This document shows positions 3,774 through 9,652 of a stretch of DNA of 64,000 bases, piece by piece (positions within the stretch are counted from its first letter, which is position 1; every line of letters starts with the position of its first letter). Below the pieces are notes generated by a model, which searched no databases, had not been told where the DNA came from, and saw only the letters and a list, made by a program, of their open reading frames with translations. The stretch is taken from contig NZ_JADFBX010000016.1 of the NCBI RefSeq assembly GCF_015223055.1, forward strand, positions 1 through 64,000, in the 5' to 3' direction. The DNA is from Pedobacter sp. MC2016-24. Lineage in GTDB: Bacteria > Bacteroidota > Bacteroidia > Sphingobacteriales > Sphingobacteriaceae. The position numbers were made by a program, and so were the translations under genes.

Positions 3774-3818
3774 CTTATGATATTAATGCTCTCTTTTTTT
3801 CATTAAGTTTTATTTGGT

Positions 3819-3850
3819 GCGGGGTAGCTGGTTACTGCCCCGCTTTTTTA
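3819..3850 (+). terminator. Rho-independent terminator
   Basis: A GC-rich stem (gcggggtag with ctgccccgc) around a 7-base loop is followed by six T residues. It ends transcription from the gene at 3306-3683. Confidence 0.75.
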
Positions 3851-3939
3851 TGTAAACTATTTTAAAATAAATACATCGAAACTTGGTTATTGTGGTTGAA
3901 ATTCTATTGATTCACACCAGGATTAAATAAAACCATTTT

Positions 3940-4869
3940 ATGATGAATGAGTATGCGATTGCATTACGAAAAAAGAGTGATGAATTGTTGAAGGGAGCAT
4001 TGGAAGCAAATTTTCCAGATTTTTTACGTTTTGTATATCCCGATGCAGATCAGGTTGTTGATTTTAGCAAGGGAATTCAATTTATGGACAAGGAGCTTTT
4101 CGCGATTATCCCTAACCGGGAGCGAAGAAGGGATGGTCGTAGAGCCGATTTGCTGGCTAAACTACATCTTAAAAACGGCACAGAAAAGTGGGTATTGCTC
4201 AATGTTGAAATTGAAGGGGGGAATGATGTTGATTTTGAAAAACGCGTTTATGAATATAACTATCGTATCCGTGATAAACACAAAGTATCAGTAGCTACCA
4301 TTGCTGTTTTTACAGGAGGTAAAAGTCAGCGCAAGCCGCGGGTCTATCGGGATGAACTGCTGGGAACGGTACTTTCATTTAGTTATTTAACTTACCATAT
4401 TTTTGACCACGATCAGGAAGCATTACTTAAAATGAATAATCCTTTTGCACTGATTGCGCTGGCTTGTCAAAAATCACTCCTGGAAGGCAAGATTCCGGAA
4501 AAACAACTTGGGGAGGAACGACTTATCATCGCTAAAGCATTGCTGAGTCATAATTATGACCATGACAGGATAACCAGCTTTCTGATTTTCATAAAAAACT
4601 TTATATACATTAACAATGAGGATATTAATTGTAAATTTGATCAGCTAATATCTGAACTAACAGGAGGAGAAATCAATATGGGAATTTTAGAGATAGTAAG
4701 AATGCAGGACAGGCGTGATGGCAGGCTGGAAGGAAAACTTGAAGGAAAGTTGGAAGGACAACATGAAGCAGCATTGAAAATTGCAGCTGAACTTAAAAAA
4801 GAAGGATTAACGGTTGATTTTATTGCAAAAACAACTAAGCTTTCCCTTGAAGAGATCGCATCATTATAG
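3940..4869 (+). CDS. Rpn-family PD-(D/E)XK nuclease, full length
   Basis: A 309-residue protein of the Rpn (recombination-promoting nuclease, transposase_31/PD-(D/E)XK) type. Residues 1-200 are the nuclease domain; Asp70 (GRRADLLAKL) and the acidic pair Glu90/Glu92 (NVEIEGG) sit where the family's metal-binding residues are expected, although the usual final Gln or Lys is not obvious. Residues about 260-272 are three LEG repeats, and the C-terminus is a helix-turn-helix-like segment (LKKEGLTVDFIAKTTKLSLE). Rpn proteins are DNA endonucleases that are toxic and implicated in phage defence in E. coli. An internal start at 4678, preceded by GGAGGAG, could make the C-terminal domain alone. The gene's 3' quarter is duplicated directly downstream. 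Confidence 0.8.
   Translation: MMNEYAIALRKKSDELLKGALEANFPDFLRFVYPDADQVVDFSKGIQFMDKELFAIIPNRERRRDGRRADLLAKLHLKNGTEKWVLLNVEIEGGNDVDFEKRVYEYNYRIRDKHKVSVATIAVFTGGKSQRKPRVYRDELLGTVLSFSYLTYHIFDHDQEALLKMNNPFALIALACQKSLLEGKIPEKQLGEERLIIAKALLSHNYDHDRITSFLIFIKNFIYINNEDINCKFDQLISELTGGEINMGILEIVRMQDRRDGRLEGKLEGKLEGQHEAALKIAAELKKEGLTVDFIAKTTKLSLEEIASL
4663..4669 (+). promoter_or_regulatory. Internal Shine-Dalgarno site inside the Rpn gene
   Basis: The perfect GGAGGAG lies 8 bases before an in-frame ATG at 4678. Strong Shine-Dalgarno sites are uncommon in Bacteroidota, and neither the full-length Rpn start at 3940 nor most genes here have one, so this site stands out. The same sequence occurs at 4901-4907 in the duplicated copy. 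Confidence 0.55.
4678..4869 (+). CDS. Possible internal-start product of the Rpn gene (RpnS-like)
   Basis: Translation from the in-frame ATG at 4678 (Met247 of the full protein) would give 63 residues: MGILEIVRMQDRRDG, three LEG repeats, then the C-terminal helix-turn-helix-like segment. In E. coli, rpn genes are known to make such a short C-terminal protein (RpnS) from an internal start, and it blocks the toxicity of the full-length protein. Here the evidence is the strong ribosome-binding site and the in-frame ATG; expression is inferred, not seen. Confidence 0.45.
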   Translation: MGILEIVRMQDRRDGRLEGKLEGKLEGQHEAALKIAAELKKEGLTVDFIAKTTKLSLEEIASL

Positions 4870-4875
4870 CGAAAA

Positions 4876-5181
4876 TGATCAGCTAATATCTGAATTAACA
4901 GGAGGAGAAATCAATATGGGAATTTTAGAGATAGTAAGAATGCAGGACAGGCGCGATGGCAGGCTGGAAGGAAAACTTGAAGGAAAGTTGGAAGGAAAGT
5001 TGGAAGGAAGGTTGGAAGGAAAACTTGAAGGAAAGTTGGAAGGAAAACTTGAAGGAAGGTTGGAAGGACAACATGAAGCAGCATTGAAAATTGCAGCTGA
5101 ACTTAAAAAAGAAGGATTAACTGTTGATTTTATTGCAAAAACAACTAAGCTTTCCCTTGAAGAGATCGCATCATTATAGCG
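4876..5181 (+). repeat. Tandem duplication of the Rpn gene 3' end
   Basis: This 306-bp segment repeats 4638-4871 (234 bp) almost base for base, including the stop codon and the tagcg that follows it; a 4-base spacer separates the copies. The only large difference is the 12-bp LEG array: three units in the first copy, nine in the second, which accounts for the 72-bp length difference. Confidence 0.9.
4916..5179 (+). CDS. Stand-alone copy of the Rpn C-terminal domain (candidate antitoxin)
   Basis: The duplicated segment keeps its own ribosome-binding site (GGAGGAG at 4901-4907) and ATG at 4916, giving an 87-residue protein that matches the Rpn C-terminus except for six extra LEG units (nine in total, Lys or Arg between them). 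The nuclease domain is absent, so it cannot be an Rpn enzyme. It is either a leftover of a duplication or, more interestingly, a separate RpnS-like inhibitor freed from the parent gene. An alternative reading that starts upstream at 4814 in another frame of the first copy is less convincing. It ends 35 bp before the convergent DUF1826-like gene. Confidence 0.5.
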   Translation: MGILEIVRMQDRRDGRLEGKLEGKLEGKLEGRLEGKLEGKLEGKLEGRLEGQHEAALKIAAELKKEGLTVDFIAKTTKLSLEEIASL

Positions 5182-5214
5182 TACAGGATAGTATGAATCG
5201 TGTTCGAAGGATAA

Positions 5215-5925
5215 CTAGCATATCAAAAGCAGACGATACTCGCCTTCATTTTCTACAGGTGCCCTGTGAACACAGGGCAAGACTGTTTGTTCGGGATGAT
5301 CTACAGCTAATTTCCAAAGATGACCCAATCCTAAATTTATTGGCCTGGCATTGACTTTAGGTCTATAATGCAGATCAAAATAATGTTCGCTCAGAAAGGT
5401 TTCGAACGTTGCATCTGGTCCATCATGTAGTTCTTTAAGCTTTTCCCGGATTTCCGGAACTAAAATCTTTTGCTCCACCTGATCATTCGGCAGGATCTCG
5501 CTTACCGCTCCGTAATAAGTACATAAGAAAGTATCCGCTGCAATGGCTGAACGGTCTATGTGATAAGAATATACATCTGTTGAAATGAAATCCAGTTCCT
5601 CATCTGTTTGATAAGCTTTGATCAGATTGAGGGAAGGAGAGGCTCCGCAATCAGTCAGGAGTCGCAAATCCTTCAAGATAATTTCCCTTGCAGCATTACC
5701 TTTTTCGGATAACCTGAGTGCTAAAAGTGTTTCGGCCTGCACCTCTGTAATATTTTGTACCAATTGAAGTTTAGATACAATTTCCTCAAAATCGCCTTCC
5801 AAATCCCTGTGCCAGCAAATTGCATTGACGGTTCCTTGAAAATGAGTAGCCACGAGCTCGGAAAAAGAGAAAACAACGCCAATTTGGGCGTTGTCCGAAA
5901 AATTATGTTCAGGTGTCCTAAGCAT
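5215..5925 (-). CDS. DUF1826-like protein
   Basis: A 236-residue soluble protein resembling DUF1826 family members. The C-terminal half carries the conserved-looking stretches SYHIDRSAI, FLCTYYGAVSEILP, NLGLGHLWKLAVDHPEQ and CVHRAPV. The H-x-D pair, a distant His and an Arg would fit an iron-binding cupin-type fold, but that is inference. I chose the ATG at 5925: a TATTTTTG promoter element lies at 5947-5954, inside the longer reading that starts at 5973, and the extra 16 residues look unrelated to the family. It converges on the duplicated Rpn copy. No function is known to me. Confidence 0.6.
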   Translation of the reverse strand: MLRTPEHNFSDNAQIGVVFSFSELVATHFQGTVNAICWHRDLEGDFEEIVSKLQLVQNITEVQAETLLALRLSEKGNAAREIILKDLRLLTDCGASPSLNLIKAYQTDEELDFISTDVYSYHIDRSAIAADTFLCTYYGAVSEILPNDQVEQKILVPEIREKLKELHDGPDATFETFLSEHYFDLHYRPKVNARPINLGLGHLWKLAVDHPEQTVLPCVHRAPVENEGEYRLLLIC

Positions 5926-7808: not shown

Positions 7809-7995
7809 GTATTTTAGGCGGACTAACGGGAGATGTCTCCCCTTCGTAAGATTTTAATAAGTAAAAGTAGAAAGGCAAATGCTTGCAGTGCTGCTGTAAA
7901 TTCGCAAAATTCTGCATTATAATACAATATTTTTCTTTATAGTTTTTTTGTTGTCTTTATTTGATAATTTCAGGCCAATATCTTAGATTTGGGAT

Positions 7996-8156
7996 ATGAA
8001 TAAGGAGTCTTATCAAATTCAGGCTGAACGGATGGAAATGTAATTTTCATTGTCGATAAGAGAGCTGGAAACGCTGAAGTTTTGACGGAGATTTCTGTAC
8101 CTAATGCAAAGAAATTTTTTGAAAATAAACGAGTTTTTTACGACGTCATCTTATGA
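7996..8156 (+). pseudogene. Frameshifted remnant of a small gene
   Basis: An ATG at 7996 opens MNKESYQIQAER and then runs into a stop at 8041. In the neighbouring frame, from 8031 to the stop at 8154-8156, 41 codons read DGNVIFIVDKRAGNAEVLTE and on without a start of their own. One base gained or lost near 8030 would join the two into a 53-residue protein. Parent family not recognised. The remainder of the 7809-8195 gap shows nothing else I can support. Confidence 0.35.
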
Positions 8157-8215
8157 AATAACGACTAATCGCGTCCTTGTTTTTATTTACATTTAATGTT
8201 AATTAAAAAATCACA

Positions 8216-8223
8216 TATATTTG
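8216..8223 (+). promoter_or_regulatory. -7 promoter element touching the higB start
   Basis: TATATTTG fits TAnnTTTG exactly and ends 2 bases before the GTG at 8226. Transcription would start at or next to the start codon, so the toxin mRNA is probably leaderless. No good TTG is found at the expected -33 distance. Confidence 0.5.
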
Positions 8224-8225
8224 CA

Positions 8226-8567
8226 GTGGAGATTACTTTTACAGATGGCAAGTTCGAAAGCCTCGCTAATGATGATAAAAAATTAGCTAAGGAATTTGGT
8301 GCTTTAAGGGCAAAAAAGATAAGGGCAAGGCTGATACAACTGCGAGATGCAGTTACTTTAGAAGATGTACGGAACTTGCCCGGAAATTATCATGAATTGC
8401 TGTATAACAGAAAAGGGCAGTGGGGGTGTGATCTCGATCAGCCTTATCGACTGATTTTTACTCCTGATGCAAGGCCTATTCCTCAGAATGAGGATGGACA
8501 ATATATCTGGCTGGCAATTAATGGTGTAGAAGTAATTGAAGTTGTAAACTACCATAAAGAAAAGTGA
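8226..8567 (+). CDS. higB: HigB-type toxin (RelE/ParE superfamily mRNA interferase)
   Basis: A 113-residue protein with the HigB pattern: EITFTDGKFESLANDDK at the N-terminus, RLIQLRDAVTLEDVRNLPG, then YHELLYNRKGQWGCDLDQPY and the RLIF strand, closing with a conserved VIEVVNYHKE. HigB toxins cleave mRNA on the ribosome and stop growth unless bound by the antitoxin. I chose the GTG at 8226 because family members begin at this point; an ATG at 8196 would place the promoter element inside the gene. The stop overlaps the ATG of higA in TGATG, so toxin and antitoxin are translated together, toxin first as usual for HigBA. Confidence 0.8.
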   Translation: MEITFTDGKFESLANDDKKLAKEFGALRAKKIRARLIQLRDAVTLEDVRNLPGNYHELLYNRKGQWGCDLDQPYRLIFTPDARPIPQNEDGQYIWLAINGVEVIEVVNYHKEK

Positions 8568-9652
8568 TGAGCAATAATCAATATTTCCCGCAATCAAGAC
8601 CGCATCCGGGTGAAACTTTAGAAGATAAACTTGAGGAAATGGGGATGGGGCCAAAGGAATTTGCTTTACGTACCGGCAAACCTGAAAAAACGATAACGGC
8701 CGTTCTTAAGGGAGAGAGTTCCATTACATCGGATATGGCCGTACAGTTTGAAAATGTGACAAAAATTCCAGCACATTTTTGGATGAGCCATCAGAGAGGT
8801 TACGATGAATATATATCCCGCTTAAAACATCAGGAAGTGATTGATGCAGCGTTAACTTGGGCTAAATTATTTCCATTAGCAGCAATGATTAAACAACAAT
8901 GGTTGCCATTTACAAATAATGAAACTGAGAAAACAGCATCATTGCTCGCCTTTTTCGGTTTTGCCAACCACACAGCATGGGAAGACTACTACTTTAATCA
9001 ACAACTTAAAGTTGCTTTCCGTATCTCTCTTTCGAGCATCAATGAACCTTATTCAATTTCTGCATGGTTAAGAAGGGGGGAGTTACAAGCTACTGAATTA
9101 AAGACGCCGGAATACTCGGCGAAAAAGTTTAAAGCAGCGTTGCCTGAATTAAAAACGCTAATGGTAAAACATCCAAAGGATTTTTTTAAACAACTTCAAA
9201 GTATTTGTTTCCAGGCTGGTGTAAAGGTAGTGCATACCCCTTGCCTGCCAAAGGCTATGATAAGTGGAAGTACACGTTGGATTAACGACACGCCATTTAT
9301 TCAATTAACGGGCAGATATAATCGTAATGACAGTTTTTGGTTTACGTTTTTCCATGAAGCCGGCCATATTTTATTGCATGGCAAAAAGGATATTTTTTTA
9401 GAAAAGATAGAATACTCTGATAAAGATAAAATAAAGGAAGATCAGGCTGATAAATTTGCGGAGACATGGTTATTAACGGAACAGGAAGAAGCCGAAATAC
9501 TAAGGGCTGATCAGCTGAATGAGCAAGTTATTAGAGATTTTGCTCTTAAATTTAATACACATCCGGCTATTATAATCGGTAGATTACAGTATAAAAAAAT
9601 AATCCCCTATTCTTTAGGTAGGGAATATCTGGAGCCTGTTGTATTTGAATAA
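8567..9652 (+). CDS. higA: HigA antitoxin fused to an ImmA/IrrE-type metallopeptidase
   Basis: A 361-residue protein. Residues about 10-75 form the HigA/XRE helix-turn-helix (HPGETLEDKLEEMGMGPKEF then TGKPEKTITAVLKG), which binds the operon promoter and, in family members, neutralises HigB. Residues about 190-330 look like an ImmA/IrrE peptidase with the zinc motif HEAGH at 263-267 (FFHEAGHILLHGK) and a helical end. ImmA-like peptidases cleave repressors, so the fusion could tie antitoxin loss to a signal; that is inference. It begins 1 bp inside the higB stop. Length is about three times that of a plain HigA, as expected for the fused class. Confidence 0.8.
   Translation: MSNNQYFPQSRPHPGETLEDKLEEMGMGPKEFALRTGKPEKTITAVLKGESSITSDMAVQFENVTKIPAHFWMSHQRGYDEYISRLKHQEVIDAALTWAKLFPLAAMIKQQWLPFTNNETEKTASLLAFFGFANHTAWEDYYFNQQLKVAFRISLSSINEPYSISAWLRRGELQATELKTPEYSAKKFKAALPELKTLMVKHPKDFFKQLQSICFQAGVKVVHTPCLPKAMISGSTRWINDTPFIQLTGRYNRNDSFWFTFFHEAGHILLHGKKDIFLEKIEYSDKDKIKEDQADKFAETWLLTEQEEAEILRADQLNEQVIRDFALKFNTHPAIIIGRLQYKKIIPYSLGREYLEPVVFE

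Follow-up and report, generated by a model that had tools for sequence, protein, structure and literature searches.

This work describes a tandem duplication at the 3' end of an rpn-type gene in a 64,000-nt stretch of the genome of Pedobacter sp. MC2016-24, referred to here as the window. The duplicated segment begins a short distance upstream of a conserved internal start codon with its Shine-Dalgarno (SD) site, and parent and copy differ in the number of 4-aa repeat units that they carry. On this basis, we judge it probable—roughly three chances in four—that the locus is an Rpn toxin-antitoxin gene, which would encode a full-length protein (RpnL) together with an RpnS made from the internal start, and that tandem duplication of its 3' end has given rise to a free-standing rpnS gene. 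The arrangement is of a known kind; what is special is the size of the length change, the recurrence of such copies at the internal start in Bacteroidota, and an SD site conserved at the level of codons.

In E. coli, the RpnL proteins tested inhibit growth, and the RpnS tail, made from an internal start, counteracts RpnL, as described by Zhong et al. 2023 (PMC10327210); this agrees with what an earlier note on this DNA had stated of an internally started RpnS that neutralizes the full-length protein. According to the same study, rpnS also exists as a gene of its own, located downstream of rpnE (ypaA) and, in a subset of strains, of rpnC. The suggestion of the earlier note that the step from an overlapping antitoxin to an independent gene was undescribed is therefore wrong, and the claim to novelty for a separate antitoxin gene falls, because rpnE-ypaA and rpnC already have such copies. 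As in the window, the rpnS gene of rpnE-ypaA and of rpnC-rpnCS lies downstream of its parent and derives from the parent's own tail. In MG1655, ypaA begins directly after the rpnE stop codon, and the stretch common to both, which includes AAGGAG, starts 12 nt before the internal ATG. Here too, the copy begins from the internal start and includes its SD site; ypaA has just one 4-aa unit more than the rpnE tail. The window differs from both E. coli cases in belonging to Bacteroidota, in encoding a protein below the curated Rpn cutoff, in a gain of six units, and in having an SD site in a phylum that rarely uses one. In the RefSeq record, ypaA (positions 7817 to 8002 of our locus L255) is a pseudogene, yet a tagged product has been detected (PMC10327210).

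Layout of the locus and identity of its product

Table 1. Features of the rpn-type locus, with positions in the window
Feature	Position	Strand	Remarks
rpn-type gene (RpnL), 309 aa	3940..4869	+	probable PD-(D/E)XK nuclease core (D70, E90) and C-terminal helical tail; 71-member alignment
GGAGGAG, SD-like site of the internal start	4663..4669	+	8-nt spacer to ATG 4678
Intragenic rpnS-like ORF, 63 aa	4678..4869	+	ATG is Met247 of the full protein
Three 4-aa (12-nt) units of the intragenic tail, RLEG-KLEG-KLEG	4723..4758	+	sequence
Parental segment of the tandem duplication, 232 nt	4638..4869	+	begins 40 nt before ATG 4678
Downstream copy of the parental segment, 304 nt	4876..5179	+	sequence comparison
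GGAGGAG of the copy	4901..4907	+	upstream of ATG 4916
Separate rpnS-like ORF, 87 aa	4916..5179	+	homologous to the parental tail
Nine 4-aa units in the copy	4961..5068	+	six more than the parent; sequence
Stretch common to the window and a single-tailed paralogue	3779..5216	+	95% identity, copy excepted; paralogue G000:C1:879410-880324

The features that the earlier note had read from the letters, namely, a gene with an in-frame internal ATG and a GGAGGAG 8 nt upstream of it, and a tandem repeat of the tail segment with its own GGAGGAG and ATG, are present in the sequence (Table 1). The parental segment and its copy differ in length by 72 nt, which corresponds to the six additional 12-nt units, and differ at three sites outside the repeat. 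The paralogue, located on another contig of the same genome, has one tail with two units and, by sequence, resembles the state before duplication. When the three differences are polarized by this paralogue, one change falls in the copy and two fall in the parent. Both segments thus seem to have changed after duplication, which argues against a simple assembly artifact; the exact unit count is what an error in assembly would most readily affect.

The window protein matches TIGR01784 at 30.8 bits (curated cutoff, 52.1), with the match confined to the tail; a Pfam search with the protein gave no match, and PADLOC assigned it to no family. For comparison with relatives, we used a 71-member alignment comprising the window protein, its paralogue, and 69 proteins (270 to 345 aa, no X) from the best 80 of 278 window-type loci. 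TIGR01784 is matched by 58 of these members at an E value of ≤0.001, and PF04754 by 20 at an E value of ≤0.01. D70 and E90, which we take to be the catalytic residues of the Rpn/PD-(D/E)XK nucleases (COG5464), are invariant in all 71 members and fit the D...E-x-(Q/E) pattern; as read from the sequence, their spacing in the window protein is the same as in E. coli RpnE.

In an AlphaFold model of the window protein (mean pLDDT, 82.9), the succession of strands and helices is compatible with the PD-(D/E)XK core. VIA-align, in which a Z score of <8, or of less than ~13 for helical pieces, may reflect merely a common arrangement, returned EndoMS/NucS nucleases as the top rows for residues ~7 to 155 of the model (Z of 7.3 to 7.5, middling) and superposed the predicted tail (residues 263 to 308) on 46 of 46 residues of E. 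coli RpnA-S (PDB entry 7TH0) with an rmsd of 1.1, a Z score of 7.4, and an identity of 30%. A Foldseek search with the model gave nothing at an E value of ≤0.001 (best E value, 0.023). While a Z score of 7.4 is weak alone for a short helical piece, the coverage is complete and the identity reaches 30%, and we therefore take the product of the window gene to be an Rpn protein.

In the model, the tail helix spans residues 249 to 287 and carries the variable number of 4-aa repeats. The model of the 87-aa copy product, which is of low confidence (mean pLDDT, 73.6; pTM, 0.41), has helices at residues 3 to 65, 70 to 77, and 81 to 86, and its predicted first helix of ~63 residues sets it apart from RpnA-S. 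Against PDB sequences, the copy product gave low-complexity and repeat-type matches and none to Rpn, and the profile of the 71-member alignment gave three matches, all with E values of 0.25 or worse.

The internal start and its Shine-Dalgarno site

Bacteroidota are a phylum that hardly uses SD sites. Met247 is nevertheless invariant in 71 of 71 aligned members, one of 15 invariant columns in the alignment, and the residues preceding it vary. A strong SD-like stretch is found at this start in 17 of the 71; most of the others are mostly A-rich there. The members with Gly-Gly at this place invariably encode the first Gly by GGA (14 of 14, compared with 25% elsewhere in those genes; p = 4e-9; the codon-bias p values ignore shared descent), and the second codon is unbiased (GGA in 4 of 14). 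With GGA fixed at the first position and no bias at the second, what is retained is GGAGG. A second Pedobacter rpn group was picked by the motif L(S/T/N)(K/R/P/Q/E)EE before the internal start. Here, Lys is encoded by AAG in 19 of 19 cases (32% elsewhere), the first Glu by GAG in 25 of 26 (29% elsewhere), and the second Glu by GAA in 25 of 26; with the wider motif, the SD site is present in 27 of 31 genes. The remaining Pedobacter rpn groups have no strong SD site at the internal start. Judged from codon usage, then, two rpn groups keep a strong SD site at the internal start by synonymous codon choice, and such codon-conserved sites within the rpn genes of Bacteroidia may constitute a new set of SD-dependent starts in bacteria for which rpsU is a well-studied example.

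Pairing strengths were estimated with a 14-nt anti-SD sequence that we presume to apply here (two patterns for the 16S 3' end were unmatched in 1 and 21 genomes). This comparison covered the 111 of 130 rpn genes that have an in-frame ATG 56 to 87 codons before the end; the other 19 went uncounted. At −9 kcal/mol or better, pairing was found for 36 of the 111 internal tail ATGs (75 fell below that strength). A site 30 nt upstream reached this value in 1 of 111 cases, and other in-frame ATGs did so in 18 of 475; none of the 105 rpn gene starts and none of the 40 window ORFs did. When the motifs GGAGG and AGGAG were sought at positions −18 to −4, they preceded the first ATG in none of the 40 window ORFs of ≥180 aa, so the earlier remark that this is a strong signal in a phylum that seldom uses one describes something beyond chance. 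Among the copies of strong-SD parents, 4 of 10 keep the strong site and 6 of 10 have lost it; in one locus (L100), the copy has a strong SD site that is absent from the parent.

Tail copies in related genomes

A TIGR01784 search covered 145 genomes of the genus, 48 of which gave a match; loci were drawn from the matches listed and from 75 fetched stretches, leaving out matches with stops, partial matches, and those at contig ends. Two loci that are pieces of the window itself (L003 and L004) and loci with ORFs of <200 aa were dropped from the Pedobacter count. The earlier note had proposed looking in related genomes for rpn genes followed by copies of their 3' ends, and such downstream tail matches do recur: among the matches listed, 24 of 134 Pedobacter rpn loci have one within 1,500 nt (23 of them without an N-terminal match), where the 134 include at least three repeats of the same gene (L007/L060, L025/L038, and L026/L044) and the frequency is biased upward because it was the tails that led to some of the early loci. 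Two of these tail-found loci, L007 and L025, were recovered again by the family search. Setting aside two repeats (L038 and L060), an array (L090), a longer piece (L098), a remnant (L047), and two weak matches (L075 and L121) leaves 17 clear copies. An upstream tail match was found in 1 of 53 Pedobacter loci tested, and this one is a full-gene array.

For the window-type rpn group, a downstream tail match was found in 11 of 79 loci tested, drawn from the best 80 of 278, in records of Sphingobacterium, Dyadobacter, Pedobacter, Chitinophagales, and Chitinophagaceae. One of the 11 (L184) has an N-terminal match as well and is probably a second full gene; upstream tail matches were found in three window-type loci (L179, L241, and L247). 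A phylum sample outside the genus comprised 27 usable loci of 29 (L162 and L169 were without an ORF), many from one family. It contained no full downstream tail copy, one short piece (L171), and two upstream partial tail matches (L151 and L153), which speaks, at the level of sequence matches, against a phylum-wide habit of tail copying.

Several loci have more elaborate arrangements. In L063 (G018:C3), the rpn gene is followed by three tandem tail copies and a fragment; the first copy is frameshifted, and the intact ones have one unit fewer and one unit more than the parent. L039 (G034:C2) has a pair of tail copies downstream; AAAGGAGGAAAGGAATATG is present in both, and the first has a rewritten repeat (LIKGELKG type). 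L047 and L051 (G056 and G106) contain a near-identical rpn gene, with the separate tail copy intact in L051 and reduced to a deletion remnant in L047. In the window's own genome, two rpn pieces are neighbors at a distance of 2.8 kb (L005 at C1:329995 and L006 at C1:332795); in both, the tail is intact and the N-terminal part is broken.

For 22 of 28 parents, an in-frame ATG follows the 5' edge of the copy at a distance of 0 to 40 nt, compared with a permutation mean of 8.6 (p < 1e-4; maximum of 19 in 20,000 draws), the 40-nt limit having been set after the window's own value of 40 was known. The 28 parents consist of 18 Pedobacter loci and 10 window-type loci; L185 was excluded as the same gene as L014, and L047 (remnant), L075 and L121 (weak), and L090 (full-gene array) were excluded as well. 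Thirteen edges lie within 13 nt of the ATG: L063 at 0 nt, L051 at 3, L210 at 4, L179 and L181 at 5, L014 and L095 at 6, L111 at 8, L100 and L203 at 10, L189 and L209 at 11, and L247 at 13. Two loci are among the 22 by way of another ATG, L098 solely via one far upstream of the tail and L017 via one that is not the counterpart of Met247. The edges beyond the limit are those of L007 (a second upstream piece), L043, L077, L134, L184, and L213; the L134 copy rebuilds an ATG at its junction. In a second phylum, rpn genes thus repeatedly shed their tail as a separate gene, with the break at the internal start, and breaks at this place provide independent genomic support for genes within genes beyond E. 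coli and C. difficile.

Possible roles of the copy and of its Shine-Dalgarno site

If the E. coli proteins are a guide, RpnS from the internal start would dimerize via its long first helix and inhibit the nuclease, and the nine-unit RpnS would be a variant in length, probably pairing either with itself or with a different RpnL. One additional 4-aa unit stops E. coli RpnC-S from counteracting RpnC and breaks its pairing with RpnC-L (PMC10327210). Because one extra unit abolished neutralization there, and the copy has nine units to the parent's three, the copy is probably no inhibitor of its neighbor. The second antitoxin-like copy proposed by the earlier note stands insofar as it has its own ORF for a predicted small protein; that it neutralizes the neighboring protein is doubtful. 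The small products of parent and copy are identical at 63 of 63 aa outside the added units, and the copy retains GGAGGAG and its spacing, as would be expected if it were a further cognate antitoxin, increasing the dosage of RpnS and neutralizing the adjacent RpnL; given the mismatch of six units and the RpnC-S result, we consider such a role unlikely.

Copies could be located for 23 of the 28 parents, 26 or 27 in all, and among 27, three are broken (the first copy of L063, L181, and L203). Compared with the parental tail, 16 of the 24 intact copies differ by whole 4-aa units, 7 differ by other lengths, and 1 (L103) does not differ. As a counterpoint to the preferred reading, this repeat-length mismatch is not special to copies and may be neutral turnover: tail length differs in 20 of 26 related rpn gene pairs at ≥95% identity and in 136 of 151 at 85 to 95%, in pairs that are not independent and with length measured from a crude anchor. 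Since related rpn genes differ as readily, the differences in repeat number show fast turnover and not selection, and we do not take the mismatch as evidence that a new specificity was selected. A comparison of synonymous with other codon changes in copies and parents was uninformative; selection on the copy is not separable from drift.

The copy might instead be a functionless, passing by-product of repeat-driven duplication that is heading for decay. The window copy is indeed young, with its three differences outside the repeat, and broken copies occur elsewhere (the L047 remnant, the first copy of L063, L181, L203, and L077). However, of the 27 copies in which the homologous ATG could be located, 24 are intact, where the neutral expectation would be ~16.5 of 27 (a rough figure for ATG-selected copies), and copies recur downstream with their edges at start codons; we hold decay to be somewhat unlikely. 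In the preferred reading, tail copies have arisen repeatedly, with a 5' edge that is probably dictated by the need for a start codon.

In the polymorphic toxins Rhs and CdiA, orphan tips are displaced C-terminal pieces that lie downstream. As in the rpn copies, a short parent-like stretch precedes the displaced piece. By analogy, recombination in the conserved 5' part of the tail would give the nuclease a new tail and leave the old one behind as a free antitoxin. In L051, L100, and L134 (first copy), the copy is 97 to 100% identical to the parent over its first 20 codons and only 45 to 64% over its last 30, and toward the C terminus, the L051 copy resembles the tails of L012 (63%) and L068 (61%) more than that of its parent. 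The window copy, by contrast, is alike at both ends (98 and 99%); the closest tail found for the L100 copy is that of its parent, and for L134 (first copy) the parent is about as close as any other tail. The latter two cases fit fast divergence, and a tail exchange is possible for L051. Rpn also differs from Rhs/CdiA in that the tail itself is the antitoxin part, and only a small number of loci, not including the window, hint at a swap. We consider displacement unlikely.

The SD site of the internal start may bear on control. The ribosomes of Flavobacterium johnsoniae have their anti-SD masked by bS21, bS18, and bS6, and a strong-SD reporter (AGGAGGU), still expressed in the wild type, increases by 40% to just over twofold upon bS21 mutation or depletion, a modest effect (McNutt et al. 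2023, PMC9976891); genes for bS21 also occur in phages whose predicted hosts are Bacteroidetes (PMC9723584). Like the rpn internal start, rpsU (bS21) of Bacteroidia has a strong SD site though the ribosomes mask the anti-SD (PMC9976891). In the window genome, rpsU carries GAGAGGAGG ending 12 nt before its ATG, with a pairing of −17.3 kcal/mol. The strong rpn sites, which differ from it in lying inside a gene, are weaker, at an estimated −9 to −12 kcal/mol or thereabouts, within the range given for rpsR (PMC9976891).

Because bS21 helps mask the anti-SD in Bacteroidia, RpnS synthesis may depend on bS21. RpnS would then be made via a strong SD site that is poorly read by bS21-bearing ribosomes, RpnL would start without an SD site, the supply of antitoxin would track bS21-less ribosomes, and a phage-encoded bS21 would cut that supply and free the nuclease. 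By analogy with F. johnsoniae, such a chain may operate in Pedobacter and some related Bacteroidia, but we hold it to be doubtful: most members of the window group are without a strong SD site, the rpn sites are weaker than that of rpsU, and the reporter effect is modest. If true, rpn would be a defense system that senses ribosome takeover, and the downstream copies without an SD site (6 of 10) would be versions released from bS21 control. The internal SD site allows a direct test of whether specialized ribosomes control a defense system. Literature searches, mostly outside the subscription literature, listed no paper that connects bS21 with the synthesis of an Rpn antitoxin; "rpn" does not occur in the main text of PMC9976891.

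A mobile cassette with defined ends was considered for the locus and set aside; the stretch common to window and paralogue (Table 1) showed no clear ends. Within this genome, the palindrome at the 3' end of this stretch was found solely at the two rpn loci; 3' of the paralogue (L002) it is long, and the window retains one arm only (positions 5180 to 5216). Approximately 3 kb from the rpn gene, positions 8196 to 9652 (plus strand) contain a small ORF (8196 to 8567) followed by an ORF (8564 to 9652) whose protein matches PD-Lambda-2_B of PADLOC (E value, 3e-34) and PF06114; by these matches, the two are likely a second defense or toxin-antitoxin pair.
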